Shown here one piece after another: positions 44,407 through 58,752 of a stretch of 64,000 bases of DNA; positions within the stretch are counted from its first letter, which is position 1; every line of letters begins with the position of its first letter. This stretch comes from Rhodospirillales bacterium (lineage in GTDB: Bacteria; Pseudomonadota; Alphaproteobacteria; Acetobacterales; Acetobacteraceae). The notes under the pieces were generated by a model, which saw nothing but the letters and a program-made list of their open reading frames with translations, had not been told where the DNA came from and made no database searches. Location of the stretch: contig JANYDF010000078.1 in assembly GCA_025359905.1 (NCBI GenBank), forward strand, positions 1 to 64,000, given 5' to 3'. Both the position numbers and the translations under genes were made by a program.

Positions 44407-45606
44407 GTGCCGTTGGGTGTGCGCCGGCGTGGCATTGCCGGGCGTGTGAGCCGATGGCTGATCGCGGCGGCGTTGCTGCACGCGGTGGTGTTAACCCTGC
44501 TGATCCTGGAGATTCCGCCACCGCCGCAGGATGGCGGCGGCGCGGCGCAATCATTCGACATGATGCTGGAACCGGCGGCGCAAACGCTGCACGGTCCGCC
44601 GGACCGGCCGGCGCAACTGCCCGGCCCGCCCGAGGCAGCAACGGTGCCCGCGACCCAAGACGCCGCCGTTACGCCGCCGCCCGCCGCCAGTGCGCCGCCG
44701 CAACCCGAAGCAGCACCTTCCCCGGCCGTGCCGCCTGCCGTCAGTGCGCCACGGATCGCTGCTCCGCCCCCGCCGCCGGTTGCGGCACCAGCGCCACCGC
44801 CTGCCCCGCTGGCCAAACCGGCCGCCGCCACGCAGCCGCCAACCGCCGCCCCGCCACCACCGCCCGGCGCGGCCGTCATTCCGGTGCCCCCCGCCTTGGC
44901 GCCCCCCGCCTTAGTGGCCCCCGCCTTGGTGGCCCCCGCCTTGACGCCATTTCTACCGGCAGTCCCGGCGCCGGCCGCGCCATCGGTTGCCGCTGCCGTT
45001 CCGCCACGCGCCGTTGCCGTACCGCCGCCGCCGCCGCCCACCATTGCCCGCGCCGAGCCATCCGCGGCGCCGCCGCGCCCGCCCCAGCCTGCGGCGAAGC
45101 GCCCGCCCGTGCCCAAGCCCGAACCAGCCTTCCCGGCCCCGATGGACCTGTCCCTCGGACTAGCACCCGCGCTAGCGCCGAGCCGCCCAGCGTCCGCCGT
45201 GCGGGGCACCGGCGCGGCCGATCTCGCGCTCGGCAGCGCTGCGCGCGATGCAGCGGGACCGCCGCCGCCCGGCGCATCCAGCACCGACGGCAATATCCGG
45301 GTGCGCGGCGCGCAGGTTGGGAAAGACTGGATCGCGCAGTTGCATGAATGGTGGCTGCAACACTCGTACTATCCGAGGCAGGCGGCGCGTGACGGCGAGG
45401 ACGGCACCGTGGTCGTCCACGTCAAGGTCAATCGCGACGGCAAGGTGGAGATGGTGGACATCGAAAGCCGCTCCGGCTCGCAATGGCTGGATGCCGGGGC
45501 GCAGGCGGTGTTTCGCGGCGCCACGCTGCCGCCGTTCCCGCCAACCACGCCGGAAAATGAGGCCGATCTGGATATCACCATCGACTACATCCTGGTGCGC
45601 CGCTGA
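44407..45606 (+). CDS. TonB-family energy transducer
   Basis: A 399-residue protein with a short basic cytoplasmic N-terminus and a single membrane anchor (LIAAALLHAVVLTLLILEI, about residues 18-36). A very long Pro/Ala-rich periplasmic linker (residues about 40-300) follows, and then a C-terminal TonB domain (HSYYPRQAARDGEDGTVVVHVKVNRDGKV, DIESRSGS, FPPTTPENEADLDITIDYIL). It would couple the proton motive force to outer-membrane receptors. The start is a GTG at 44407; nearby GTG codons are alternatives. Neither exbBD nor a receptor gene is adjacent. The linker contains a 15-bp tandem repeat. It ends six bases from the convergent GntR gene. Confidence 0.87.
   Translation: MPLGVRRRGIAGRVSRWLIAAALLHAVVLTLLILEIPPPPQDGGGAAQSFDMMLEPAAQTLHGPPDRPAQLPGPPEAATVPATQDAAVTPPPAASAPPQPEAAPSPAVPPAVSAPRIAAPPPPPVAAPAPPPAPLAKPAAATQPPTAAPPPPPGAAVIPVPPALAPPALVAPALVAPALTPFLPAVPAPAAPSVAAAVPPRAVAVPPPPPPTIARAEPSAAPPRPPQPAAKRPPVPKPEPAFPAPMDLSLGLAPALAPSRPASAVRGTGAADLALGSAARDAAGPPPPGASSTDGNIRVRGAQVGKDWIAQLHEWWLQHSYYPRQAARDGEDGTVVVHVKVNRDGKVEMVDIESRSGSQWLDAGAQAVFRGATLPPFPPTTPENEADLDITIDYILVRR
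44893..44937. repeat. Three 15-bp tandem repeats in the TonB linker
   Basis: Units GCCTTGGCGCCCCCC, GCCTTAGTGGCCCCC and GCCTTGGTGGCCCCC run head to tail, with a partial fourth. They encode the repeated Ala-Leu-Val-Ala-Pro motif of the periplasmic linker. Slippage here would change linker length without breaking the frame. Confidence 0.8.
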
Positions 45607-45612
45607 GCTCGA

Positions 45613-46377
45613 TCAGCCCGCTTCAGCCGGCCGGCGCTGGATGGTCAGCGAGTAGACGAAGCGGTCCGCCGGCAGCGTGGTGACCGAGACCTCCATCAGC
45701 CGGTGCCCGGTGCCGAGATAGCGGCGAATGATCCGCAACGCGGGCGAACCTTTGGGTGCACTGAGCCGCTCGGCCTGCACGGCGTCGAGCACCGTCGCCT
45801 CGATTTCCTGGCGGATTTCCAAGATCGGCTCGCCCGCCGTCTGCTCCAGCAGCATGAACAGCGCGGTGCGGAACACGGCCTGCGTCGCTACCGGCCCGGC
45901 CAGCCGGTGGTCGACATAGACCTCGGCACAGCACAGCGGCCGCGATTCGCCGGGTGCGACCCGCCGCACGCTGAGTTTCAGCCAGCGCGCGCCGGGTCGG
46001 CAGCCGAGTTGCGCGGTCAGCCGCCCGCTGGCGGTGATCCATTCGCGGTCATCGACCAGCATTTCGGTGTCGGCCGCCAGATCGAGCAGATCGGCAACCG
46101 ACTGAAATCCGTAGCGAAAATGCCGCCCCGGCTCCGCCGCATCCACCCGTGTGCCGATACGTTTGCGCGCCGACAGCATGCCCCGGTCGCGCAACTGGCC
46201 GATGGCCTGGCGCACCGTCTGGCGGCTGACTCCGTAGCGCACGGCAAGCTGCACCTCGGTGGGCAACAGCGAGCCGACCGGGAATTCACCGGCATGGATC
46301 GCGTCGCGCAAGTGCTGCGCCACGCGCAAGTAGCGCGGCATGACCTCGCCGTCCTGATCCGCCACCCGATCGATCAC
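45613..46377 (-). CDS. GntR-family regulator with UTRA effector domain (HutC type)
   Basis: A 254-residue repressor-type regulator. The winged helix spans about residues 12-80 (LRDAIHAGEFPVGSLLPTEV, YGVSRQTVRQAIGQLRDRGM, ARKRIGTRV). The UTRA effector domain follows (CAEVYVDHRL, ALFMLLEQTAGEPILEIRQEIEATVLDA, LRIIRRYLGTGHRLMEVSVTTLPADRFVY). It is divergent from the nine-gene catabolic operon beginning at 46569 and is its likely repressor, released by the substrate or an intermediate. Two perfect palindromes lie in the shared 190-base control region. Confidence 0.92.
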   Translation of the reverse strand: MIDRVADQDGEVMPRYLRVAQHLRDAIHAGEFPVGSLLPTEVQLAVRYGVSRQTVRQAIGQLRDRGMLSARKRIGTRVDAAEPGRHFRYGFQSVADLLDLAADTEMLVDDREWITASGRLTAQLGCRPGARWLKLSVRRVAPGESRPLCCAEVYVDHRLAGPVATQAVFRTALFMLLEQTAGEPILEIRQEIEATVLDAVQAERLSAPKGSPALRIIRRYLGTGHRLMEVSVTTLPADRFVYSLTIQRRPAEAG

Positions 46378-46470
46378 ACCCTCCGTCGCCGCGCGAAGCC
46401 GCAGCGGGGCACCCCAGCCACAAACTTCTGACGCAATCGCGTTTCAGCGCAAGAAAATCTCGACAAGCCT

Positions 46471-46484
46471 TAAGTCCGTACTTA
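46471..46484. promoter_or_regulatory. GntR-type operator, TAAGT-CCGT-ACTTA
   Basis: A perfect inverted repeat with five-base arms and a four-base spacer lies between the GntR gene and the dehydrogenase gene. It resembles HutC-type operators. It is placed 85 bases before the dehydrogenase ATG and about 94 from the regulator's start, suitable for controlling both. Confidence 0.55.
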
Positions 46485-46488
46485 TCGT

Positions 46489-46568: not shown

Positions 46569-47606
46569 GTGAAAGCCATTGTTCTGCGCGAATACGGCGC
46601 ATTCGACACCCTGTTGTGGGAGGACGTATCCACCCCCGTGCCGGATTTCGGCGAGGTGGTTATCCGAGTCCGTGCCACTGGTCTGAACCACTGCGACACC
46701 GATTTGCGGCGCGGCCTGTTCGGGCTGGCGCAAACGTTTCCGCATGTGATGGGCGTCGATGCGGCCGGAACCATCGAAGCGGTGGGCCCCGGCGTGACCG
46801 AATATAAGCCCGGCGACCGGGTCGCCCCGCACTTCGTGCTGTCGTGCGGCACCTGCCGCAACTGTCTGCGCGGCCTGGAAAACATCTGCCTGAACGCCGG
46901 GTTGCTCGGCATCACCACCTGGGGCAGCTACGCGCAATTCGTCAAAGTGCGGCAGAACAACTTGATCCGGCTACCGGATGGTTTGCCGTTCGATGAAGCC
47001 GTGGCCGCACAAGTGCCGCTGGCCACTGCCTGGGAAGCGCTGATCGAAGTCGGCAAACTCCGCGCGGGCGAGACAGTGCTGGTGAATGCGGCAGGCAGCG
47101 GCGTCGGCTCGGCGGGCATCCAAATCGCCAAGCTGGCGGGAGCCCGGGTGATCGCCACCACCGGCCAGGACAGCAAGTTCGCCGCCGCCCGCGCGCTCGG
47201 CGCGGACGAGGTCATCAACTACAGCACCGCCAACGTACCGGATGCGGTGATGGCACTGACCGGCGGGCTAGGCGCCGACATCGTGCTCGACATGGTCGGC
47301 GGCGACCGGCTGAAAGATAGCATCGCCGCAGCAGCGCTCGGCGGACGCATCGTCAGCGTTGGCGCGCATGGCGGCGAGCACGTGGACATCGACATGATCG
47401 AGCTGTTCCGCAAACACATCAGCCTGCACGGCTGCGGCCGTTCGACGCGCGCCATGGTCGGCGAAGTGCTCGGGCTGGTCGCGGCGGGCAAACTCAAGGC
47501 GGTAATCCACAAGCATTTCCCGCTGTCGCAAGCGGCAGCAGCGCATGAGTTGATGGAAAGCCGCGCGTTTTTTGGTCGGATGGTGATGGACCCGTGGCAA
47601 GCATGA
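46569..47606 (+). CDS. Zinc-dependent medium-chain alcohol dehydrogenase
   Basis: A 345-residue MDR enzyme. Structural-zinc cysteines are complete (HFVLSCGTCRNCLRGLENIC, about residues 93-111), a catalytic-zinc Cys lies in LNHCDTD, and the NAD(P) motif is in NAAGSGVGSAGIQIAKLAGARVIAT. The gap around VGSAG and the quinone-reductase-like C-terminus leave NADPH:quinone reductase as the alternative; the zinc motif argues for an alcohol dehydrogenase. It is the first gene of the GntR-controlled operon, and its stop overlaps the next start (ATGA). The role in the pathway is probably oxidation of a hydroxy intermediate. Confidence 0.88.
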   Translation: MKAIVLREYGAFDTLLWEDVSTPVPDFGEVVIRVRATGLNHCDTDLRRGLFGLAQTFPHVMGVDAAGTIEAVGPGVTEYKPGDRVAPHFVLSCGTCRNCLRGLENICLNAGLLGITTWGSYAQFVKVRQNNLIRLPDGLPFDEAVAAQVPLATAWEALIEVGKLRAGETVLVNAAGSGVGSAGIQIAKLAGARVIATTGQDSKFAAARALGADEVINYSTANVPDAVMALTGGLGADIVLDMVGGDRLKDSIAAAALGGRIVSVGAHGGEHVDIDMIELFRKHISLHGCGRSTRAMVGEVLGLVAAGKLKAVIHKHFPLSQAAAAHELMESRAFFGRMVMDPWQA

Positions 47607-48505
47607 ACGCCCCGCTGTTGCTGCGCAGCCTGCTGTTCGCGCCCGCGAATGAGCCGCGCAAAACCAACAAGCTGTCGGCATCCGGGGCCGACGCCGTGGT
47701 GCTGGACCTGGAAGACGCCGTGGCGCGCGACCAGAAAATCGCCGCACGCCCGATCGCCCGCGCGGCGCTCGCCGGTATTTCGGGCCCGCTGCGCTGCATC
47801 CGCGTCAACGCGTTCGACACCGGGCTGACCGCAGGCGACGTGGCGGAAACCGTGTGCGCCGAACTGGATGTGATCGTACTGCCGAAGGCCGAGGCGGCGG
47901 TGGATTTGCGCCGTCTCGACATCATGCTCGACGAAGCCGAGGCCAAGGCCGGCCTGCCGCGCGGCCATGTGCGTGTGTTGCCGCTGGTGGAAACCTGCAT
48001 TGGCATTGCGGCAGGCGGCGAGATCGCTCGCGCTTCGACCCGCATTCTGGCTATCGCATTCGGTTCCGGGGATCTTGGCCGTGATCTGGCATTGCCGACC
48101 ATTCGCGGCGACCTGACGGCCGCTCTCGCCTACGGCCGCGGCAAGATCGTCTACGACGCGCGCGCCGCCGGATTGGGCGCGCCGCTCGATGGCCCGTATC
48201 TGAACGTACGCGATCAGGTGGGGCTGGAAAAGGATTGCCGCATCGCCGCAGCCCTCGGCCATGGCGGCAAGGTCTGCATCCATCCCGATCAGGTTGCCGT
48301 CGCCAACCGCGTGTTCGGCCCTGATCCGGACGAAGTGCAATTCGCGCACAAAGTCATCGCCGAATTCGCCGCCGCTGAAGCGCGCGGCTCGGCCGCCATC
48401 GCGGTGGACGGCGTGTTCATCGACTACCCTATCGTCATCAAGGCGCAAGCGATCATCGCGTTGGCTGCCGTGATCGCTGCCCGGCAGGAAAGGTCCGCCG
48501 CATGA
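47603..48505 (+). CDS. CitE/HpcH-family CoA-ester lyase
   Basis: A 300-residue TIM-barrel lyase of the CitE/malyl-CoA lyase family. Seen: RSLLFAPANEPRKTNKLSASGADAVVLDLEDAV (CoA and Mg site), IRVNAFDTG, VIVLPKAEAA, VLPLVETCIGI, and the late GKVCIHPDQV segment. It cleaves or condenses a beta-hydroxyacyl-CoA such as malyl- or citramalyl-CoA. The start ATG at 47603 overlaps the dehydrogenase stop. The following gene is a CoA transferase, which would provide its CoA-ester substrate; the two overlap by four bases. Confidence 0.9.
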   Translation: MNAPLLLRSLLFAPANEPRKTNKLSASGADAVVLDLEDAVARDQKIAARPIARAALAGISGPLRCIRVNAFDTGLTAGDVAETVCAELDVIVLPKAEAAVDLRRLDIMLDEAEAKAGLPRGHVRVLPLVETCIGIAAGGEIARASTRILAIAFGSGDLGRDLALPTIRGDLTAALAYGRGKIVYDARAAGLGAPLDGPYLNVRDQVGLEKDCRIAAALGHGGKVCIHPDQVAVANRVFGPDPDEVQFAHKVIAEFAAAEARGSAAIAVDGVFIDYPIVIKAQAIIALAAVIAARQERSAA

Positions 48506-49710
48506 CCCTCGGACTTGGCACCCCCATGCAGGGCGTCCGTGTGCTGGACTGCGCGACATTCATCGCGGGCCCGGCCTGCGCCACGTTCTTGGGCGAATTC
48601 GGCGCCGAAGTGATCAAGGTGGAATTGCCGAAAATCGGCTGTCCGCTGCGCAAATTCGGCACCGCGACCGATGGCGGCGACACGCTGCCGTGGATGTCGG
48701 AATCGCGGAACAAGAAGTCGCTGACGCTGGATTTGCGGACACCGGAAGGCGCGGCAATCCTGAAGGACCTCGTGCGCCAGTCCGACATTCTGGTGGAGAA
48801 CTTCCAGCCCAACACGATGGAGGAATGGGGCGTCGGCTGGGACGAATTGCGCGCGATCAATCCAAAACTGGTGATGGTGCGCATTTCCGCCTACGGCCAG
48901 ACCGGCCCCTATTCCGACCGCCCCGGCTTCGGCCGCATCGCCAACGCTTTCGGCGGCTTGTCGTATCTGGCTGGCTACCCTGACCGTCCGCCGGTGACGC
49001 CGGGCAGCGCCACACTGCCCGACTATATGTCCGGCATGTTCGGTGCGATGGGCGCGCTGTTCGCGCTGCGCGTGGCCGAACGCACCGGCGTCGGCCAAGT
49101 GGTTGATATTGGCTTGTATGAGTCGATCTTCCGCATTCTCGACGAGTTGGCCCCGGCCTTCGCCTATCGCGGCAAAATCCGCGAGCGGATGGGCCCCGGC
49201 ACCGTCAACGTGGTGCCGCACAGCCACTACCCGACTCAGGATGGCCGCTGGATCGCCATTGCCTGCACCAACGACAAGATCTTCGCCCGCTTTGCCGAGG
49301 TCGCGGGGCAACCCGAACTGGCGGGCACCGGCAAGTGGGGCACCACCAAGCAGCGCGAAGCCGAGCGCGAGGCGGTGGACGCCTGGGTTGGCGAGTGGAC
49401 CCTGCGGCACACGCTGGACGAGGCGCTGACACTGTGCGCCGATGGACAAGTGCCGTGCGGGCCGCTGCTGTCGATCGACCAGATTTTCCAAGACCCGCAT
49501 TACGCGGCGCGCGAGAACCTAAAAACGATCCAAGACCCGCGCGCCGGTGAAATCGTGGTGCCGAACGTCGTTCCACGCTTGACCGCGACCCCCGGCAACA
49601 TTGAACATCTGGGCCCGGCGCTAGGTTCAAGCACCGACGATATCTTGGGCAGCCTGCTGCATATGCAGGCCGCCCAGATTGTCGCGCTCCGCGAGAAAGG
49701 AGTGATTTGA
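48502..49710 (+). CDS. CaiB/BaiF-family (class III) CoA transferase
   Basis: A 402-residue class III CoA transferase that moves CoA from a donor thioester to a carboxylic acid through an aspartyl intermediate. Seen: VLDCATFIAGPACATFLGEFGAEVIKVE at the N-terminus, SRNKKSLTLDLRTPEG, DILVENFQPNTMEEWG, SAYGQTGPY, and the catalytic Asp in LPDYMSGMFGA near residue 175. It would activate the acid released by the hydrolases downstream so that the CitE-like lyase can cleave it. It is coupled on both sides by overlapping start/stop codons. Confidence 0.93.
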   Translation: MTLGLGTPMQGVRVLDCATFIAGPACATFLGEFGAEVIKVELPKIGCPLRKFGTATDGGDTLPWMSESRNKKSLTLDLRTPEGAAILKDLVRQSDILVENFQPNTMEEWGVGWDELRAINPKLVMVRISAYGQTGPYSDRPGFGRIANAFGGLSYLAGYPDRPPVTPGSATLPDYMSGMFGAMGALFALRVAERTGVGQVVDIGLYESIFRILDELAPAFAYRGKIRERMGPGTVNVVPHSHYPTQDGRWIAIACTNDKIFARFAEVAGQPELAGTGKWGTTKQREAEREAVDAWVGEWTLRHTLDEALTLCADGQVPCGPLLSIDQIFQDPHYAARENLKTIQDPRAGEIVVPNVVPRLTATPGNIEHLGPALGSSTDDILGSLLHMQAAQIVALREKGVI

Positions 49711-50450
49711 TGGCTGGTTGGGACCAAATGCTGACGGCAGCCGACCGCGAGGTGCTCTCGCGCGGCCGCTGGGGCCAGCGGGCCGGCGTCGGCACGCGCC
49801 CAGCACTGCTTATCATCGACGCGCAGAACTATATGACCGGCACACGCGGCGCCAATGACAATGCCGAGAAGTTCCCGCTGGCCTGCGGCGATGTTGGCTT
49901 TGCCGCCACGGACCAAATGCAGCGGTTGCTGCACGCGTCGCGCGCAGCTTGCATCCCGGTTTTCTTTACGCGCTTCATCGTCGATCCAATCAACGACGAC
50001 GTCGGCATGTTTCACCGCAAGATCGGTGCGGGCGTTGGGCGCGGCCCCAATCTGTATTTTCGGGGCAGCCACGGGGCTGAAATCGTCCCCGATCTCACAC
50101 CGCTGCCAACCGAAATCGTACTGGATAAGAAAAAGAAAAGCGCCTTCTTCGGCACGCCGTTGCTGTCGCTGCTGATCGACCGGCGGGTGGACACCTGCAT
50201 CATCGTCGGCGGCAGCACGTCGAACTGCGTGCGCGCCACGGTGATCGATTCCGAGCAGTACAATTTCTTCACCGTCATCCCAGAAGAAGCCGTGTTCGAC
50301 CGGCTGCCGCTGTCGCATGCGACCAGCCTGTTCGACATGGACCGCAGTTATGGCGACGTGATGAAGGTCGATGATGTGCTGGCCTACATCGCAAGCGTCG
50401 CGCAATCCCCGCAACCGGACGCCGCGCCTTCGGCGGCAGGAGTGCCGTGA
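49710..50450 (+). CDS. Isochorismatase-family amidohydrolase
   Basis: A 246-residue cysteine hydrolase of the isochorismatase/N-carbamoylsarcosine amidase superfamily. The catalytic triad is visible: Asp in LLIIDAQNYMTG (about residue 33), Lys in LDKKKKSAFFGT, and Cys in GGSTSNCVRATVIDS preceded by the cis-peptide region. Family activities include N-carbamoyl amidohydrolase, maleamate amidase and ureidoacrylate hydrolase, all releasing ammonia from a linear amide. Its ATG (49710) overlaps the CoA-transferase stop, and its own stop overlaps the next start. It is a good candidate for the half-amide or carbamoyl hydrolysis step. Confidence 0.9.
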   Translation: MAGWDQMLTAADREVLSRGRWGQRAGVGTRPALLIIDAQNYMTGTRGANDNAEKFPLACGDVGFAATDQMQRLLHASRAACIPVFFTRFIVDPINDDVGMFHRKIGAGVGRGPNLYFRGSHGAEIVPDLTPLPTEIVLDKKKKSAFFGTPLLSLLIDRRVDTCIIVGGSTSNCVRATVIDSEQYNFFTVIPEEAVFDRLPLSHATSLFDMDRSYGDVMKVDDVLAYIASVAQSPQPDAAPSAAGVP

Positions 50451-51388
50451 TGACCTACAAGCCATTCCAATTCATCGACGTTCCAGGCCCCAAGCGCGAC
50501 TTCGTCGGCTACGGCCGCCATGCCCCGCGCGTGCGCTGGCCGAACGGCGCCCGCGTGGCGATCAACATCGTCATCAACTACGAAGAAGGCTCGGAAAACT
50601 CGCATGGCGCAGGCGATGCCCGCAACGACGGGCTGACCGAAGTCATTTACAGCATGGACCCGGCGTACCGCGATCTGGCCGCCGAATCGGTGTTCGAATA
50701 CGGCTCGCGCGCCGGCATCTGGCGGCTGGAGCGGCTGCTCACCGAATACAAGATGCCTGCGACGTTCTACGCCTGCGCGGTCGCACTGGAACAAAACCCC
50801 GAGGTCGGCGCCTGGATCAAGGAAGCGGGGCACGAGCCATGCTGCCACGGCTACCGTTGGGAAGAAGTGTGGAAGCTGACCGACGCGGAGGAAGCCGAGC
50901 ATATCCAGCGCGCCATTGAATCCATCGAGCACACCTGCGGCGAACGCCCGCGCGGCTGGTATTGCCGCTATGGCGCGTCGGTTCGCACCCGCGACCTGTT
51001 GGTGAAGGAAGGCGGCTTCGTCTACGACTCCGACATCTACAACGACGATTTGCCGTACTATGTGCCGGTGCAGGGCAAGCAGCATCTCGTTGTGCCGTAC
51101 TCGTTCACCTATAACGACGGCAAATTCGGGCTGCTGCCCGGCTACGGCGGGCCAGAGGACTTTGTCGATAACCTCAAGCGCGGCTTCGACGAGTTGTGGC
51201 GCGAGGGAGATACGCATCCGAAGATGATGTCCATCGGCCTGCATCCGCGCCTGATCGGCCAAGCGAGCCGCATTCACGCGCTGCGCGAGTTCTTCGACTA
51301 CGCCTTGGGCAAAGGCAGCGTGTGGTTCACGCGCCGTTTGGACATTGCGAATTGGTGGAACGAACACCACGCCGAGTTCGCCCGTTGA
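50450..51388 (+). CDS. PuuE-type polysaccharide-deacetylase-fold hydrolase (allantoinase / cyclic imidase-like)
   Basis: A 312-residue NodB-fold protein of the PuuE subgroup. Seen: NIVINYEEGSENS in place of the usual Asp-Asp motif, ATFYACAVALEQNP, CCHGYRW (metal His) and RPRGWYCRYGASV. This subgroup includes metal-light allantoinase PuuE and the bacterial cyclic imide hydrolases, which open five-membered cyclic amides. No signal peptide is present, as expected for a cytoplasmic ring-opening enzyme. It sits between an isochorismatase-like hydrolase and an amidase in fully overlapping frames, consistent with sequential cleavage of a cyclic ureide or imide. The substrate is inferred from context only. 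Confidence 0.85.
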   Translation: MTYKPFQFIDVPGPKRDFVGYGRHAPRVRWPNGARVAINIVINYEEGSENSHGAGDARNDGLTEVIYSMDPAYRDLAAESVFEYGSRAGIWRLERLLTEYKMPATFYACAVALEQNPEVGAWIKEAGHEPCCHGYRWEEVWKLTDAEEAEHIQRAIESIEHTCGERPRGWYCRYGASVRTRDLLVKEGGFVYDSDIYNDDLPYYVPVQGKQHLVVPYSFTYNDGKFGLLPGYGGPEDFVDNLKRGFDELWREGDTHPKMMSIGLHPRLIGQASRIHALREFFDYALGKGSVWFTRRLDIANWWNEHHAEFAR

Positions 51389-52719
51389 CCGCGGTCCGCG
51401 CGCTGCAAGCGACCTACGATCGCATCGCAGCGGTCAACGATACTTACCGCGCCTATGTGACGCTCGACCCAGAAGGCGCTATGCGCAGCGCAGAGGCCGC
51501 CGACCGCGCCCGCAAAGACGGCCAATGGCTCGGCTTGCTGCATGGCATGCTGATCGCGGTGAAGGACAGCATCGACACCGCCGGCATCCGCACAGCCTGC
51601 GGCTCGCGCTTGTTTGCCGACCGGGTGCCTAACGAAGATGCACCGGTGGTACAGCGGTTGCGCAACGCCGGGGCTATCATTGTCGGCAAAGCATCGTTGA
51701 TGGAACTGTGCTTTGGTGTGCGCTCGACGGATATGATTGGCGGGCAAGTCCGCAACCCGTGGAATCCGGCACATGTGCCGGGCGGCTCCAGCGGCGGTTC
51801 CGCCGTCGCCGTGGCGCTCGGGTTGTGCGAAGGCGCGCTCGGTACCGACACTGGCGGTTCGGTGCGCATGCCTGCCACATTTTGCGGCATCACCGGCTTG
51901 CGTCCCACCCATGGCCGCGTCTCCAATCGCGGTGCGCTGCCGGTGAGCGCTTCGTTCGACACGATCGGCCCGATGGCGCGCAGCGTCGATGACGTGGCGC
52001 GGATGCTGGTGACGATGGCCGGCCACGACCCGCTCGACCCAACCTCGGCCGATATGCCGCTGGCAGCCGATATCCTGTCGTTGTCCGCCAGCGTCGGCGG
52101 CCTGCGCATCGGCGTGCCGCGGCATTTCTATTTCGACGATATCGACCCGGAGATTGCCCAAGCCGTGCGCAACCTTGCCCAAACTCTGGGCGAAGCCGGC
52201 GCAAAAATTGTAGCCGTCGACCTGCTGGGGGCGGAGGTGGCTCACCGCTACGCCACCACGATCATCTTGCCGGATGCCTGCGAAGTTCATGCGCGGGCGT
52301 TGGATGAGCGCGCCGATGACTTTTCCGTGCAGGTCCGGCAGCGAATGATCAAGGGCCGCGACCGCAGCGGCGTAGACTACGCCGCCGCCGAGCGATTCCG
52401 CGCCGAGTGGCGGCGGACACTGCGCGCGTTGTTCGGCGAAATCGATATTCTGTTGTACCCAGGCTCACCATTTGCCGCTCCCCCCATTGAGGACGGCGCC
52501 CATTTGGAAGATTCCACCCGTCACGCCACACGCTTTACTTATGGGGGTGCGCTGGCGGGGTTACCCGGGCTTTCGGTCCCGTGCGGCTTTACCTCGACGG
52601 GGCTGCCCATCGGTGCGTTGATGGAAGCCGCCTGGGGCAATGAGTCCGTGCTGCTGCGCGCTGGCCGCGCTTGGCAGTGCGCAACCGACTGGCATTTGCG
52701 ACGTCCGGCTGCTGCGTGA
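51385..52719 (+). CDS. Amidase signature-family hydrolase
   Basis: A 444-residue amidase with the Ser-cisSer-Lys triad. Lys lies in LIAVKDSIDTAG (about residue 60), cis-Ser and the Gly/Ser-rich signature in PGGSSGGSAVAVALG, and the nucleophile in GTDTGGSVRMPATFCG. A TTG start at 51385 (TTGA) overlaps the stop of the preceding hydrolase and gives the normal N-terminus TAVRALQATYDRI. Substrates of the family range from acylamides to half-amides, allophanate and Glu-tRNA. The absence of gatB/C and the operon position argue against GatA. It would hydrolyse a linear amide in the same pathway. A 106-base gap follows. Confidence 0.92.
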   Translation: MTAVRALQATYDRIAAVNDTYRAYVTLDPEGAMRSAEAADRARKDGQWLGLLHGMLIAVKDSIDTAGIRTACGSRLFADRVPNEDAPVVQRLRNAGAIIVGKASLMELCFGVRSTDMIGGQVRNPWNPAHVPGGSSGGSAVAVALGLCEGALGTDTGGSVRMPATFCGITGLRPTHGRVSNRGALPVSASFDTIGPMARSVDDVARMLVTMAGHDPLDPTSADMPLAADILSLSASVGGLRIGVPRHFYFDDIDPEIAQAVRNLAQTLGEAGAKIVAVDLLGAEVAHRYATTIILPDACEVHARALDERADDFSVQVRQRMIKGRDRSGVDYAAAERFRAEWRRTLRALFGEIDILLYPGSPFAAPPIEDGAHLEDSTRHATRFTYGGALAGLPGLSVPCGFTSTGLPIGALMEAAWGNESVLLRAGRAWQCATDWHLRRPAAA

Positions 52720-52825
52720 CCGCTTTGCGGTTCCCGTTGTGCCCGGCACAGCTTTTGCTGGGAGACGCCTACGCCTTACGGCCCGAGACCTCGGCGAACG
52801 CGCCGCAACACAGAGTGGGGTTCAC

Positions 52826-53938
52826 ATGATATCATACCGGACGATGCTGCTCTCGCTTGCTGGGGGCGCCGCTGCGCTGCTGGCCGCCAATACCGGCTAT
52901 GCCGCAACACCCGATATCGAGGGCGCCAAGGCGCTGATCGCAGCACACAGCGTGCTGCCCACATTCACGCCACCCGCTGAGCCGTTCGACGCAAAAAAAT
53001 GCATGAAGGGCAAGAAGCTCCTCACCATGCCGGTGTCGAGCGCCAACCCGTTCACCAAGAACATCGCGCTTGCTGAAATCGCCGTCGGCAAAGAACTCGG
53101 CTTCGAAGTGAAGGAATGGGAAAACCAGGCTCAGCCCACGCAGTGGGTGCAGGGCATGGAATTCGCCATCAACAATCATTACGACGCCGTCGATCTGATG
53201 GGCGGCGTCAATCCGCAGGTGCTCGGCCCGCAGATCGCCCAGGCCAAGAAGGCCGGCATCAAGATTTATACGTCGCATCTGTACGACACCATCCAAACCC
53301 CTGACCCCAGCGTCGATCTTTCGATGCAGGTCCCGTATCACGATGTCGGCACGCTGCTGGCGAGCTGGGTGACGGTGAAGACCGGCGGCAAGGTCAATGC
53401 GGTGATCGTCGGCTCCGACGAAATCATCCCGACCGCGCCGTTCGTCAAAGGCATCACCGACGGGCTGAAGAACATCTGCGGTGCGAACTGCAAGTTCACC
53501 TACATCAACGCGCCGGTGCCGGAGTGGTCGACAAAGATCAAGATCGGCGTGCAATCGGCACTGATCGCCGATCCGACGATCAACTACATCATCCCGATCT
53601 ATGACAGCATGTCGCAGTTCGTGGTGCCGGCGTTGACCATCACCGGCCGCAAGGACGTCAAGATCGCCACCTTCAACGGCACGCCGTTCGTGATCGACCT
53701 GATCCAGAAGGGCAACGTCGAGATGGACGTGGGCGAAAGCCTCGGCTGGATCGCGCGTTCGATCCTGGATGGCTACATGCGCGACATGTGCGGCCTGAAG
53801 ACCTACACCGCATTGTATGTGCCGTTCTATCTGTTCGACAGCAGCAATGCCAAGAACGCCGGCACCCCGGCCGACTACGATCGTGGCTACGGCGACCAGC
53901 ACGTCGCAGGCTACGACAAGCTGTGGATGGTGAAGTGA
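52826..53938 (+). CDS. Periplasmic sugar-binding-type (PBP1) solute-binding protein
   Basis: A 370-residue binding protein of the ribose/xylose (PBP1) type. The signal peptide is MISYRTMLLSLAGGAAALLA with cleavage near ANTGYAA (residue 26). The mature domain has VSSANPFTKNIALAEIAVGKELG, NNHYDAVDLMGGVNP and KIATFNGTPFVIDLIQKGNVEMDVGESLGWIAR. It feeds the RbsA/RbsC-like ATPase and permease immediately downstream (GTGA overlap). A CC pair (KNICGANC) might form a disulfide. The ligand is presumably the compound degraded by the upstream enzymes rather than a sugar. Confidence 0.9.
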   Translation: MISYRTMLLSLAGGAAALLAANTGYAATPDIEGAKALIAAHSVLPTFTPPAEPFDAKKCMKGKKLLTMPVSSANPFTKNIALAEIAVGKELGFEVKEWENQAQPTQWVQGMEFAINNHYDAVDLMGGVNPQVLGPQIAQAKKAGIKIYTSHLYDTIQTPDPSVDLSMQVPYHDVGTLLASWVTVKTGGKVNAVIVGSDEIIPTAPFVKGITDGLKNICGANCKFTYINAPVPEWSTKIKIGVQSALIADPTINYIIPIYDSMSQFVVPALTITGRKDVKIATFNGTPFVIDLIQKGNVEMDVGESLGWIARSILDGYMRDMCGLKTYTALYVPFYLFDSSNAKNAGTPADYDRGYGDQHVAGYDKLWMVK

Positions 53939-55545
53939 GCAACGCGCCTCCGAAGCGCAGCGTGCCGGGGGAAGCCCCGGCACTATCGCTGCGGCACTTC
54001 TCCAAGCGCTTCGGCGGCGCACTGGCTTTGAACGACGTGTCGCTCGACGTTATGCCGGGCGAAGTGCTGGGCTTGCTGGGGCAAAATGGCTCCGGCAAGT
54101 CCACGCTCATCAAGATCCTATCTGGCTATCACGTGCCGGAACCCGGCGGCGAACTGCTCATCCATGGCGAGGGCGTGCCGCTGCCGGTCCCAGCCGGGAC
54201 CACCGAGAAACTCGGACTTGCCTTTGTGCATCAGCATCTTGGCTTGGTGCCGTCGCTCACCGTGCTGGAAAACCTCCGCATGAACGCCATCGCCAGCGAG
54301 ACCCGCTGGTGGATGAACTGGCGGCGCGAACGTGACCGCGCCCGCGAGGTGTTCGCCCGCTTCGGCCTCGATATCGACCCGGCGGCGCGCATTGCCGATT
54401 TGCCGCAGGTCGAGCGCGCGCTGGTGGCCATCGTGCGCGCGTTTGAATCAGTGCAGGCGCAAGGCCGCGACCATGCGGGCATTCTGGTGCTCGACGAACC
54501 TACTCCATTCTTGCCGAAAACCGGCGTCGATCAATTGTTCAGCCTCGTGCGCGCCATCGTGCGCGAAGGTGCGGCGGTTATCTTCGTCTCGCATGACGTG
54601 GACGAGATCATGGACATCACCGACCGCGCCACCGTGCTGCGCGACGGCGTTCTGGCTGGCACCCTGGATAGCAAGGGCGCCACGCACGACGATTTCGTTG
54701 AGCTCATTGTCGGCCGCCGCGTCGATCTGTTCCACACCACACCCAAGGATATGTCGGGCCGCCCCGTGACAGTCGGTGTCCGCAATGTCACTGGCGGCTC
54801 GCTGCGCGATGTGTCGGTCGACATTCACCAGGGCGAAATCCTCGGCCTTGCCGGCTTGATCGGCTCGGGCTTCGACGACCTGCCGTATCAAATCTACGGC
54901 GCCCGCCCGGCCAGCAGCGGCACAATCCGTTTGCCGAGTGGGCAAGAAGCCCAGTTGCACCATATGTCGCCGCCTGCCGCACTGGATGCGGGCATTGCGC
55001 TGCTGCCGTCGGACCGGCTTGGGGCGGCCGGGGTTGGGGCGCTGTCGATTGCCGACAATGTTTCTCTGCCGGTGCTCGATGAATTCCGTCGCTTGCTGCT
55101 GGATTGGCCCGGCATCTTCAGCCGCGCGATGCAACTCGGCACCAATTATCAAGTACGGCCCAACAAGCCGGAAATGAAACTGGCCTCCCTGTCCGGCGGC
55201 AATCAGCAGAAAGTGCTGATGGCCAAGTGGCTGCAGACCGAGCCGAAGCTGCTGCTGCTCGATGAGCCAACGCAAGGGGTGGACGTCGGCGCGCGGCAGC
55301 ATCTGTACGGCGCGCTATCCGAGGCGGCCGGGCGGGGCATTTCCGTGCTGGTTGCGAGCACCGATTTCGAGCAGTTGGCGCAAATCTGCGACCGCGTGCT
55401 GATCTTCGCCCGCGGAGTAATTATCGCCGAGTTGCAAGGCAGCGCCATCACCAAGGGCAATATTGCCGAGCAATGCGTACGCGGCGCGAGCCAAACCACA
55501 GCCTCAGCCGATCACGCCAAACGACAGGGTGCCGCCACGTCATGA
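53935..55545 (+). CDS. RbsA-like dual-domain ABC ATPase with a degenerate first signature
   Basis: A 536-residue tandem ATPase starting at the GTG 53935 that overlaps the binding-protein stop. In the first domain, Walker A GQNGSGKSTLIKIL, Q-loop LAFVHQHLGL, Walker B ILVLDEPT and VSHDVDE are present, but the LSGGQ position reads DLPQVERALVAIVRA. The second domain has the usual degenerate Walker A (LAGLIGSGFDDL) and an intact LSGGNQQKVLMAKWL with LLLDEPTQGVDVG. Ribose-type ATPases keep one functional and one degenerate site. Here the first domain's signature is also non-canonical, so site pairing may be unusual. Confidence 0.9.
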   Translation: MSNAPPKRSVPGEAPALSLRHFSKRFGGALALNDVSLDVMPGEVLGLLGQNGSGKSTLIKILSGYHVPEPGGELLIHGEGVPLPVPAGTTEKLGLAFVHQHLGLVPSLTVLENLRMNAIASETRWWMNWRRERDRAREVFARFGLDIDPAARIADLPQVERALVAIVRAFESVQAQGRDHAGILVLDEPTPFLPKTGVDQLFSLVRAIVREGAAVIFVSHDVDEIMDITDRATVLRDGVLAGTLDSKGATHDDFVELIVGRRVDLFHTTPKDMSGRPVTVGVRNVTGGSLRDVSVDIHQGEILGLAGLIGSGFDDLPYQIYGARPASSGTIRLPSGQEAQLHHMSPPAALDAGIALLPSDRLGAAGVGALSIADNVSLPVLDEFRRLLLDWPGIFSRAMQLGTNYQVRPNKPEMKLASLSGGNQQKVLMAKWLQTEPKLLLLDEPTQGVDVGARQHLYGALSEAAGRGISVLVASTDFEQLAQICDRVLIFARGVIIAELQGSAITKGNIAEQCVRGASQTTASADHAKRQGAATS

Positions 55546-56546
55546 CGCAAGCCCCATCTGCCACAGCACCCGCCAGCACGGCCCGCAAGTTCAACTGGGT
55601 GCGCTTCCTCGAAGCTTACGCCTTGGTGTTCGCGCTCATTTTGCTCGGCGCAGTGTTCGGCGCGCTGCGCCCCGAATCGTTCCTGTCATGGGGCAACATC
55701 TCCACCATGCTCGGCTCGCAGGCCGTGCTGGTGGTGCTGACCATGGCGCTGATCATCCCGCTCACCGCAGGCGACTTCGACCTGTCGGTGGCCAGCATGC
55801 TGACGCTGTCGGCGATGATCATCGCCGTGCTGAATGCGCAGATGGGTGTGGAACTGTTGCCTTCGATCGGCGTGGCATTGCTGGCCGGTGCGATTCTGGG
55901 CGCGCTGAATGCGTGGTTCATCCTGTATTTCCGCATTCCCTCGCTCATCGTAACACTCGGAACCGGCACATTCGTCAACGGTTTGGTGTTGTGGATGAGC
56001 GGTTCGATGACCATCAGCGGTCTTGACGACGCTCTTGTCGAGTGGGTGGTCGTGCGGCGTGTGTTCGGCATCCCGCTGGCGTTTTACTATGCCGTGGCAC
56101 TCTGCGCGGTGATTTGGTACTTCTTCGGCTACACGACGGCTGGCCGCCGCCTGTTGTTCGTCGGGCGCGGCCGCGAAGTGGCGCGGCTGTCCGGCATCCG
56201 GGTCGACCGCGTGCGGATGTTCAGCCTGATCACCTCCGGCGTACTGTCCGCCGCATCCGGCGTCATGTATGCGGGCACCATCGGCGCGGCGGACCCGCTC
56301 TCGGGCCTGACGTTCATGCTGCCGGGCTTTGCCGCAGCGTTCTTGGGCGCCACCAGCGTTTCGCCGGGCCGCTTCAATCCCTGGGGCTCGTTGGTCGCGG
56401 TGTACTTCCTGGTCATCGGCATCACCGGCCTGACCATTCTGGGCATTCAAACCTTCGTGCAGAACCTGTTCTACGGCGGCGGCTTGGTGCTGGCCGTGGC
56501 GCTGTCGCAGTTGGTGCGCAACCGCGAGGCGCAGGACTTCACCTGA
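55542..56546 (+). CDS. RbsC-like ABC transporter permease
   Basis: A 334-residue permease of the ribose/branched-chain type with eight to ten hydrophobic segments. Conserved: IPLTAGDFDLSVASMLTLSAMI near residue 75 (the family Gly-x-x-Asp-Leu-Ser-Val motif), IPSLIVTLGTGTFVNGL, and the late FLGATSVSPGRFNPWGSLVAVYFL. The ATG overlaps the ATPase stop (ATGA). It completes a three-gene importer for the operon's presumed nitrogenous substrate and ends three bases from the convergent SDR gene. Confidence 0.92.
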   Translation: MTQAPSATAPASTARKFNWVRFLEAYALVFALILLGAVFGALRPESFLSWGNISTMLGSQAVLVVLTMALIIPLTAGDFDLSVASMLTLSAMIIAVLNAQMGVELLPSIGVALLAGAILGALNAWFILYFRIPSLIVTLGTGTFVNGLVLWMSGSMTISGLDDALVEWVVVRRVFGIPLAFYYAVALCAVIWYFFGYTTAGRRLLFVGRGREVARLSGIRVDRVRMFSLITSGVLSAASGVMYAGTIGAADPLSGLTFMLPGFAAAFLGATSVSPGRFNPWGSLVAVYFLVIGITGLTILGIQTFVQNLFYGGGLVLAVALSQLVRNREAQDFT

Positions 56547-56549
56547 TCG

Positions 56550-57266
56550 CTACACCATGCCGCCATTCACGCCGATCACTTGGCCGGTGACCCACCGGCC
56601 TTGATCGGAGGCGAGAAAAGCAACCGCGTCGGCAATGTCGGCCGGTTGCCCGACCCGCCCCAGTGGCGTGATGCTGGGCGCATGCTGGCGGGTGGCGTCG
56701 GACATCATATCCGTGTCGGTGGCGCCCGGTGCGACGGCATTGACCGTGATGCCGCGCCCGCCCACTTCGCGCGCCAGCACGCGGACAAACTGCTCCACCG
56801 CCGCCTTGCTGGCAGCGTACAGCCCGTAGCCGGGGAATACCTGCAGCGTCAAATTGGTGGAAATCGCCACGATCCGCCCGCCGTCGCGCACCCGCCGCGC
56901 CGCTTCGGCCAGCGTGAAGAAAGCGCCGCGCGTGTTGACAGAAAAGCAGGCGTCGAAGTCGGCGGCAGTGGCTTCGGCCAGCGTACCGCTGGTCAGCACC
57001 CCGGCGTTTGCCACCACGATACTGGGCGGCCCGAACGCGGTAGACGTTGCCGCGAATAAATGCCGCACATCGTCCTCGCGCGCCACGTCGGCGGCAATCG
57101 CCATCGCACGCCCACCCGCTGCGCGGATGGCGTCCACCACGCCCTGCGCCTCCGTAGCGCGCGTGGCATACGCCACCGCCACCGCAGCGCCATCTGCGGC
57201 CAGCCGCAGCGCGATGCCACGGCCGATGCCGCGCGAGCCGCCGGTGACGATGGCGACCGGGCTCAT
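56550..57266 (-). CDS. Short-chain dehydrogenase/reductase
   Basis: A 238-residue SDR, complete with VTGGSRGIGRGIALRL at the N-terminus, NAGVLTSGTLAEATAADF, the catalytic YGLYAASKAAVEQFV and the C-terminal VTGQVIGVNGGMV. An Arg after the second strand (ATRATEAQ) favours NADPH. It overlaps the end of the inositol-monophosphatase-like gene by four bases, and the two run opposite to the catabolic operon. The substrate is unknown. Close convergence with the permease suggests the two genes form a separate transcript. Confidence 0.9.
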   Translation of the reverse strand: MSPVAIVTGGSRGIGRGIALRLAADGAAVAVAYATRATEAQGVVDAIRAAGGRAMAIAADVAREDDVRHLFAATSTAFGPPSIVVANAGVLTSGTLAEATAADFDACFSVNTRGAFFTLAEAARRVRDGGRIVAISTNLTLQVFPGYGLYAASKAAVEQFVRVLAREVGGRGITVNAVAPGATDTDMMSDATRQHAPSITPLGRVGQPADIADAVAFLASDQGRWVTGQVIGVNGGMV

Positions 57267-58090
57267 GCGAACAACACGTCGCGCAGCGCGTGGAAGCTGG
57301 CTTCATCCGTCGTGCAGATCAGCCCGCCGCCGGTGCTGGTTGGACTGTAGGGCGAGCCATCGAAGCGTGCCGAATACCCGCCCGCTTCCTGGTGCAACAG
57401 CCAGCCCGGCGCATGGTCCCACGGCATCAGGCGGTAGAAGGTCAAGAAGTGGCACTGTCCGGCAGCGGCCAGGCGGTATTGATGCGCGGCGCAGCGAAAA
57501 TCCCAACTGGCCGCCACCTTGTGCAGATTGCCGCACACGGCGGCGCGCTGCGGTTGCGGCAAGTAGCGCCAGCCCACACAGCCGGTCATCAAGTCCGGCG
57601 CGGCCGGGGCCGCCACACGCAAGTCCTGCCGGTTGCCGTCGACCGTCTGCATCCAGGCGCCCTCGCCGCGCAGCGCGAAGGCGGTGTCATCGCCCATCGG
57701 GTCATGGATCGCCGCAGCGACGATCTCGCCGCGCACAATCGCCGCCGCCATCGTGCCGAACAGCGGCAGGCCCGAGGCATAGTTCGCGGTGCCGTCGATC
57801 GGATCGACCACGAACGACAAGTCCGCCCCGGCCAATGCCCCCAGCAATTCCGGATCGGCCGAGGCAGCTTCCTCGCCCACCACCACACAGCCAGGGAAAC
57901 GGCGCACTAACCCGGCGGTGATCACCCGCTCGGCGGCCTCATCGGCCTCGGTGACCAGATCGAGCGGGCCGCTTTTGGTGCGCACCTCCCCGTCCAGCAG
58001 GTTGCGGAATCGCGGCAATACTTCGGCACGAGCGGCGTCGCGCAGAATGGTTCCGAGATCGGCGAGGTCAGCAGCGGAAAATATCGTCAT
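57263..58090 (-). CDS. Inositol monophosphatase family protein
   Basis: A 275-residue Mg-dependent phosphatase of the IMPase superfamily. Metal-binding motifs are intact: VVGEEAA (Glu), FVVDPIDGTANYASGL (Asp-x-x-Asp-Gly-Thr), and MPWDHAPGWLLHQEAGG (Trp-Asp). The start ATG at 58090 begins close to the conserved core. Substrates could be inositol phosphate, histidinol phosphate or a nucleotide such as PAP. The downstream SDR overlaps its end, implying cotranscription. Nothing in the flanks points to a specific pathway. Confidence 0.92.
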   Translation of the reverse strand: MTIFSAADLADLGTILRDAARAEVLPRFRNLLDGEVRTKSGPLDLVTEADEAAERVITAGLVRRFPGCVVVGEEAASADPELLGALAGADLSFVVDPIDGTANYASGLPLFGTMAAAIVRGEIVAAAIHDPMGDDTAFALRGEGAWMQTVDGNRQDLRVAAPAAPDLMTGCVGWRYLPQPQRAAVCGNLHKVAASWDFRCAAHQYRLAAAGQCHFLTFYRLMPWDHAPGWLLHQEAGGYSARFDGSPYSPTSTGGGLICTTDEASFHALRDVLFA

Positions 58091-58171
58091 GCGGCGGATG
58101 GTGGCCGGGCGACGGCGCCTGGGCAAGCGATGGTTGTTGGTCCAGTCCGATGATCGCGCTATGTTCCGCGC

Positions 58172-58752
58172 ATGGTAGCCGCGCTGAGAATGCCGCCCCG
58201 TCACATGACCGTCCCCGAGTTCCTGGAATGGGACCCGGAGGATGGCAGCGGCCAGCTATGGCAGTTGCGCGACGGCGAGCCGGAGATGATGGCGCCAGCA
58301 TCGATCCGGCACGGCAGCATTCAGTCTCGGCTCAGCTACCTGCTCACCGGGCACCTCGACCGGCAAGCTGGGTCTTGCCGCGCCGTGATTGCCCCCGGCG
58401 TCGTGCCGCGAGTTCGAGCCGACACGAACATGTTGATCCCGGATATTGGAGTCACCTGCTCTGCAGAGACCGATGGCATTGCCCTCAGCAATCCGGTCGT
58501 GCTCATCGAGATTCTGTCGCCGTCCAACGAAGCGCAAACGCGCGCTAATATCTGGGCGTACTGCACAATCCCGTCGGTGATGGAAATTCTCGTGCTGCAT
58601 ACCAGCCGGATCGGCGCTGAACTGCTGCGGCGCGGTGCGGATGGCAATTGGCCGGCGCGACCGATACAACTGGGTCCGGACGACGGCATTCACTTGGAAA
58701 GCCTCGGCTTCGCTGCGCCGTTGCTTGCGGCGTACACCAACTCAGGGCTGGG

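Follow-up and report, generated by a model that had tools for sequence, protein, structure and literature searches.

The window analysed here, 64,000 nucleotides of contig JANYDF010000078.1 from a Rhodospirillales bacterium, carries a compact group of nine same-strand open reading frames on the plus strand (46569-56546), each matching its protein family far above the Pfam cut-off. The first six encode enzymes: an MDR-family oxidoreductase without catalytic zinc, probably an NAD(P)H-dependent C=C reductase (46569..47606; ADH_N/ADH_zinc_N); a CitE/HpcH-type beta-hydroxyacyl-CoA lyase (47603..48505, with an alternative start at 47594; PF03328 (HpcH_HpaI), 118.7 bits); a class III (CaiB-type) CoA-transferase (48502..49710; PF02515 (CoA_transf_3), 378 bits, full length); an isochorismatase-type amidohydrolase, hereafter ICH (49707..50450; PF00857 (Isochorismatase)); a predicted PuuE-type opener of cyclic amide rings (50447..51388; Polysacc_deac_1 and TIGR03212, the latter at 331.5 bits); and an AtzE/GatA-like amidase-signature hydrolase (51385..52719; PF01425 (Amidase), 376 bits). 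The last three encode a CUT2 (ribose-type) ABC importer, with all the components expected of this family: a periplasmic solute-binding protein with a ribose-binding fold (52826..53938; PF13407 (Peripla_BP_4)), an ATPase with two nucleotide-binding domains (53935..55545; PF00005 (ABC_tran) in two stretches) and a permease (55542..56546; PF02653 (BPD_transp_2), 98 bits). Outside this interval, a divergent gene on the minus strand (45613..46377) encodes a GntR/HutC-type repressor, in which both the helix-turn-helix domain (PF00392, 69 bits) and the UTRA ligand domain (PF07702, 62 bits) of that family are present.

The original prediction described these genes as a GntR-controlled operon in which nearly every gene start overlaps the previous stop. 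This description holds: seven of the eight junctions are 4-nt stop/start overlaps (ATGA, GTGA or TTGA) if the most probable start codons are taken, namely ATG at 47603 for the CitE-type lyase, GTG at 53935 for the ATPase and ATG at 55542 for the permease. The sole non-overlapping junction is a 106-bp gap between the amidase and the solute-binding protein. A terminator-like stem followed by TTTT lies within this gap (52736-52752) and could separate enzyme expression from importer expression; shuffled sequence contains near-equal numbers of such stems.

Conservation of the operon and its operator-like site

When GTDB genomes were searched with the ICH protein, seven loci matched at 69-93% identity, and the window proteins were then mapped onto these. 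The complete ten-gene set is found in L036 (80-93% identity), L039 (72-87%) and L037, a Rhodobacteraceae metagenome-assembled genome from a reactor (44-79%). Candidatus Rokubacteria (L038) has the reductase, CitE, ICH, PuuE and importer genes without the CoA-transferase and amidase, while in both Elioraea loci (L040, L041) all six enzyme genes are present and TRAP-like transporter genes stand before them in place of the ABC importer. Lichenifustis (L042) has the reductase, ICH and PuuE, with an importer ~5 kb away, and two more genomes of the same class (L028, L029) have the reductase, PuuE, amidase, importer and ICH without the lyase or CoA-transferase. Overall, Rhodospirillales, Rhodobacteraceae, Elioraea and Rokubacteria share the gene set, mostly with its order unchanged. 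The invariant core of the orthologous loci consists of the reductase, ICH and PuuE; the lyase, CoA-transferase, amidase and importer type vary. As the ten-gene set recurs in L036, L037 and L039, and most of it in L038, L040 and L041, the arrangement is not due to chance. This conserved synteny, which the original prediction had proposed to search for, is found in four or more lineages and supports a single co-transcribed unit together with the overlapping genes.

No second ICH match at E 1e-55 was found in a phylum-wide draw of 398 genomes; the operon is therefore rare. Looser relatives combine ICH, CitE and CaiB with an amidase (L026, a Variovorax plasmid), CitE, CaiB and PuuE with ICH (L061), or CitE with ICH and PuuE (L032). 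More distant ICH matches (L014-L025, 37-41% identity) have different neighbours, judging from a quick look at L033-L035.

Upstream of the operon, a pair of promoter-like hexamers (TCGACA-17-TATCGT, 46460..46488 on the plus strand; a consensus match only) encloses a near-palindromic 12-mer, AAGTCCGTACTT (46472..46483, plus strand). This putative GntR operator sits between TCGACA and TATCGT, the position expected for a repressor. The pattern AAGTNCGNACTT has one match in the whole 4.63-Mb genome, which is this operator-like site, and with one mismatch it is expected 0.43 times in the window. GntR orthologues adjoin the operon in L036 (80% identity), L039 (72%) and L037 (44%). AAGTCCGTACTT is unchanged and in the same position in L036 and L039, and L037 has AAGTTCGTACTT plus AAGTTCGTACAA; the hexamer arrangement is the same in L036, with one change per hexamer in L039. 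Since L036 is a close relative, operator identity there says little, and the weight rests on L039 and L037. A conserved operator-like site within the promoter spacer argues for the proposed GntR control.

Several neighbouring features were also seen. The operon ends 3 bp from a convergent SDR gene (56550-57266), which together with an inositol-monophosphatase-like gene lies directly downstream on the minus strand (56550-58204); both are also downstream in L036. Upstream of the GntR gene, 44407-45606 encodes a very proline-rich protein with, judged by eye, a TonB-like C-terminus. The Rhodobacteraceae operon has a further gene after the permease (L037, 16816-17973), which encodes an iron-containing alcohol dehydrogenase. 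A protein of ~270 aa adjoins the amidase in three operon relatives (L028, 4550-5383; L029, 4348-5163; L041, 11704-12522), and in one case it is weakly similar, below the cut-off, to the haloacid dehalogenase DehI. AtuA-family and DUF4387 proteins lie near ICH and PuuE in two genomes (L042, 6075-7763, by family match; L032, 5277-6985, by sequence recognition). Finally, an Acetobacteraceae-type cluster (L060, 3708-15170) combines a Rieske oxygenase, a PdxA-like dehydrogenase, ICH, a PuuE-type protein, CaiB and TctC-type binding proteins, and perhaps represents an aromatic imide route.

The predicted ring opener and its partner enzymes

The predicted ring opener aligns over its full length with the PuuE structure 3cl6 (1.5e-83) and keeps the NYEEG and HG(Y/W)RW motifs of PuuE allantoinases. 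However, its 331.5 bits against the allantoinase PuuE model TIGR03212 fall below the cut-off of 424.6, whereas the Shinella PuuE reaches 454. The GWYTGR motif found in 3cl6, 1z7a, 3s6o and the Shinella allantoinase is also absent; the window protein has GWYCRYGAS, and all orthologues have the GWYCRYG type. In a phylogenetic tree, the ring opener and its orthologues form their own, well supported clade outside the GWYTGR allantoinases (98/95 for ten orthologues, or 100/99 with Paenarthrobacter added). The same genome encodes other PuuE proteins with GWYTGR and two RutA proteins over the cut-off, so plain allantoin and uracil are probably handled elsewhere.

These features bear directly on a variant allantoin or purine route, in which the PuuE-type enzyme would open allantoin, ICH and the amidase would strip allantoate to glyoxylate, the CitE-type enzyme would condense glyoxylate and acetyl-CoA to malyl-CoA, and CaiB would recover the CoA. 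Such a route would fit with the use of the same importer family by PuuE-type clusters containing ureidoglycolate lyase (see below), and with Paenarthrobacter, where a second PuuE-type gene adjoins an NCS1 (allantoin-permease-like) carrier and a citrate-lyase-family gene. It seems quite unlikely, though, given an opener that scores under the allantoinase cut-off and lacks the GWYTGR of the genome's other PuuE proteins, an operon without ureidoglycolate lyase or allantoate amidohydrolase, and an invariant reductase that would have no role.

The opener had been described as PuuE/cyclic-imidase-type, of which the PuuE (allantoinase) type is borne out, while a 3QBU/HxnM type is not visible. The described cyclic-imide hydrolases, HxnM and a Pseudomonas relative 64% identical to it, are reportedly nearest to 3QBU (PMC8478523, PMC9304392). 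The window protein scores 62 bits against 3QBU (HpPgdA) and 284 bits against PuuE, although the cyclic-imide hydrolase sequence itself was not part of this comparison. A cyclic-imide route would begin with a substituted succinimide, maleimide or glutarimide, which the PuuE-type enzyme would convert to a half-amide and ICH or the amidase to a dicarboxylate, before CaiB and CitE cleave a hydroxy derivative. The logic matches that of the Aspergillus nicotinate system, where HxnM, an imidase with a polysaccharide-deacetylase fold, is followed by HxnN, an amidase-family hydrolase (PMC9304392). Unlike the window operon, the fungal system has an imidase of the 3QBU type and lacks a comparable CoA-transferase, lyase and importer. 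Because the opener is of the PuuE type and not visibly of the 3QBU/HxnM type, a ureide is somewhat better supported as a substrate than an imide, and we regard the imide route as possible but unlikely.

The oxidoreductase belongs to the MDR superfamily by its ADH_N and ADH_zinc_N domains, but lacks the ligands of zinc-dependent alcohol dehydrogenases: N40, V63 and V148 occupy the positions of the Cys, His and Cys ligands (N40 and V63 as aligned to 5k1s). N40 and V63 are kept in the orthologues, and the structural cysteines (Cys93/96/99/107) are invariant in ten of them. As all three catalytic zinc ligands are lost, the protein probably uses NAD(P)H to reduce a conjugated double bond instead of oxidising alcohols. 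Pfam recovered all nine gene families named in the original prediction, but the "dehydrogenase" among them is more likely such a reductase.

The invariant core is exactly a reductase, a ring opener and an amidohydrolase, which raises the idea of a reductive-pyrimidine analogue assembled from unrelated enzymes, with the MDR protein replacing dihydropyrimidine dehydrogenase, the PuuE-type protein dihydropyrimidinase and ICH beta-ureidopropionase. The core would share the reduce, open and decarbamoylate logic of reductive pyrimidine breakdown, and its importer and GntR families are common to RutA clusters. Nonetheless, the window families are not those of the classical enzymes, a CoA and lyase end is added, and the formation of beta-alanine would have no use for CitE or CaiB. 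We also know of no pyrimidine-reducing MDR enzymes, and with two RutA genes over the cut-off already in the genome, we think this explanation very doubtful.

The closest solved relatives of ICH are the N-carbamoylsarcosine amidohydrolases 26st and 1nba, although these are only distantly similar (92-126 bits) and belong to another operon context. Across 14 relatives of ICH, D38, K141, C174 and R199 do not vary; the Asp, Lys and Cys are shared with the N-carbamoylsarcosine enzymes, and R199 aligns to Arg202 of 1nba, which in that enzyme holds the substrate carboxylate. This predicted carboxylate-binding residue fits a substrate whose carboxylate has been newly made by ring opening. The same Arg is also kept in the maleamate-amidase-like 3ot4, a point in favour of an imide. 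ICH is not a RutB by the TIGR03614 model (61 bits, cut-off 377.95).

The CitE-type lyase is closest among solved structures to an acyl-CoA lyase beta chain and malyl-CoA lyase. Its LDLEDAV motif and the acidic metal-ligand positions E133 and D160 are conserved in ten relatives; the catalytic residues of both this enzyme and ICH are intact. The combination of a CoA-transferase with a C-C lyase of the CitE superfamily follows the logic of itaconate degradation (CoA-transferase and RipC), but the window lyase is far under the RipC citramalyl-CoA lyase cut-off (NF038242; 145 vs 375 bits) and there is no hydratase in the operon. The CoA-transferase is likewise below every curated substrate-specific cut-off, including those of the formyl-CoA (214 vs 442 bits) and succinate-glutarate (236 vs 750 bits) models, and the amidase is below that of the AtzE model TIGR02715 (303.7 vs 425.75 bits). 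The lyase and the CoA-transferase both retain the features of their families, and neither fits a model for a particular substrate.

Neighbourhoods of the importer family

The importer proteins score below all sugar-specific cut-offs (at best 341 vs 689 bits for the ATPase and 141 vs 396 for the permease). An AlphaFold model of the solute-binding protein (pLDDT 79) best matches ribose and sugar binding proteins (Z ~28, 17-20% identity), but the ribose-binding fold is generic and this modelled match gives no ligand; searching with a profile of its alignment brought up no solved chain at E 1e-15. The polysaccharide-deacetylase fold of the ring opener and the sugar-type importer might be taken to mean that no ring compound is involved, with the PuuE-type protein deacetylating a carbohydrate or amide and an amide-bearing sugar or acid being used by the operon. 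Some importer relatives do occur in sugar-like contexts (L064). Yet the closest relatives of the opener are by far PuuE proteins, and the importer neighbourhoods described below also oppose this explanation, which we consider highly improbable.

These neighbourhoods are rich in ring-opening enzymes. In Salipiger (L067), the importer adjoins PuuE and ureidoglycolate lyase, and two further loci (L070, L082; Shinella) have an allantoinase over its curated cut-off and an amidase of the hydantoinase/carbamoylase family. The importer relatives in Palleronia (L069) and Rhizobium rhododendri (L083) accompany a RutA over the cut-off and a RutA homologue, respectively, and both of these clusters also contain amidases and an isochorismatase. 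The window GntR is 40 and 47% identical to the GntR proteins of these two loci. Elsewhere (L079-L081), the importer occurs with hydantoinase A/B, isochorismatase, PrpB-type lyase and PrpD-type genes, though not every gene is found in each locus. In total, a ring-opening gene lies within ~10 kb in 16 of 19 importer-family loci, the other three being L064, L068 and L084. By comparison, only ~0.09 ring-opener genes are expected per 20 kb, since the 4.63-Mb genome has 20 of them (7 PuuE-like matches, 11 hydantoinase A and 2 RutA). The corresponding binomial probability (7e-15) is overstated, as the loci are related, the background comes from one genome and the operon's own loci are counted; about five independent contexts remain. 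Taken together, the neighbourhoods and the kinship of the GntR proteins favour a cyclic ureide or imide as the likely substrate, in line with the original prediction. The RutA and allantoinase neighbours point to ureides and against an imide, while the pairing of hydantoinase A/B and isochorismatase with PrpB-type lyase and PrpD-type genes would suit an imide.

Some Rut-type clusters thus have the importer family in common with the operon, along with amidases, an isochorismatase and a GntR of related sequence. In contrast to the Rut pathway (RutA-F), the operon has neither RutA nor RutF, its ring opening would be hydrolytic and its ICH is far under the RutB cut-off.

Two groups of importer loci are worth describing in their own right. 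The loci with hydantoinase A/B (L079, 9685-19466; L080, 1-9257; L081, 7496-16281) form a second uncharacterised arrangement of the importer family; their hydantoinase A/B proteins are nearest to caprolactamase models, far under the cut-off, and the PrpD-type gene is in L080. The two RutA clusters with a ribose-type importer and related GntR (L069, 2829-17667; L083, 1567-14790) possibly encode a substituted-pyrimidine route, and the L069 isochorismatase matches no RutB model.

A proposed catabolic route

On balance, we lean towards an inducible operon that would import a small cyclic ureide or imide (a ring containing -CO-NH-CO-), probably neither allantoin nor uracil, and use it by hydrolysis. 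In this scheme, the GntR/UTRA repressor would bind AAGTCCGTACTT in the promoter spacer and leave upon binding the substrate or an intermediate. The ring compound, a ligand suggested by the importer neighbourhoods, would be taken up by the ribose-type ABC importer. The zinc-less MDR enzyme, judging from its lost ligands, may reduce a conjugated double bond, either in the ring itself or in an intermediate, and the PuuE-type enzyme, by its family, would open the ring, exposing a free carboxylate along with a terminal amide or carbamoyl group. ICH, which has an Asp-Lys-Cys triad and a predicted carboxylate-binding Arg, would then remove the terminal group as ammonia, and the amidase would cut a second amide bond where one exists. 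Where present, CaiB may activate the freed dicarboxylate with CoA, and the beta-hydroxyacyl-CoA would be split by the CitE-type lyase into acetyl-CoA (or an analogue) and a 2-oxo acid or glyoxylate.

Several observations weigh against this scheme. TRAP-like genes take the place of the importer in Elioraea (L040, L041), and distant cluster relatives have TTT-type (L026) or LIV-type (L061) components, to which an organic anion would be equally suited. Ring openers are missing from three importer-family loci (L064, L068, L084), and the solute-binding protein is, by its model, structurally closest to sugar-binding proteins. No enzyme is evident for installing the beta-hydroxyl group. Moreover, the lyase and CoA-transferase are absent from L028, L029 and L042, and CaiB also from L038, so the CoA-activation and lyase end does not belong to the invariant core. 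This end, in which CoA would be transferred and a hydroxy-dicarboxylyl-CoA split by retro-Claisen cleavage, is the weakest part of the scheme. The PrpB-type lyase in the hydantoinase A/B clusters gives an independent hint of a terminal hydroxy-dicarboxylate cleavage.

Uracil, allantoin, succinimide, citrazinate and maleimides were each weighed as the substrate and were not adopted, as no gene singles one out. A more specific version, to which we attach only a tentative, low probability, is a further form of cyclic ureide (pyrimidine- or hydantoin-like) catabolism in which MDR ring reduction, opening by a PuuE relative, ICH deamidation, CoA transfer and retro-Claisen cleavage would share no step enzyme with Rut or Pyd and would act on a substrate without a described bacterial route.

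The operon is real and conserved, and the original prediction is partly supported and made somewhat more precise: under GntR control, the genes would serve the use of a cyclic ureide (or imide), with allantoin and uracil both improbable as the substrate. The original prediction knew of no described operon with this exact set, and we likewise found none of the same composition in the open-access literature (subscription papers were not covered); "new" refers here to what has been described and does not mean that a novel route is proven. Nucleobase decay, cofactors, pesticides and drugs all give rise to cyclic ureides and imides, for which few bacterial routes are known. The operon's own importer and repressor site provide direct handles (binding protein, regulator and ring opener) toward an undescribed nutrient, and would help to correct the labels ("allantoinase PuuE", "sugar ABC transporter") given to the operon proteins.

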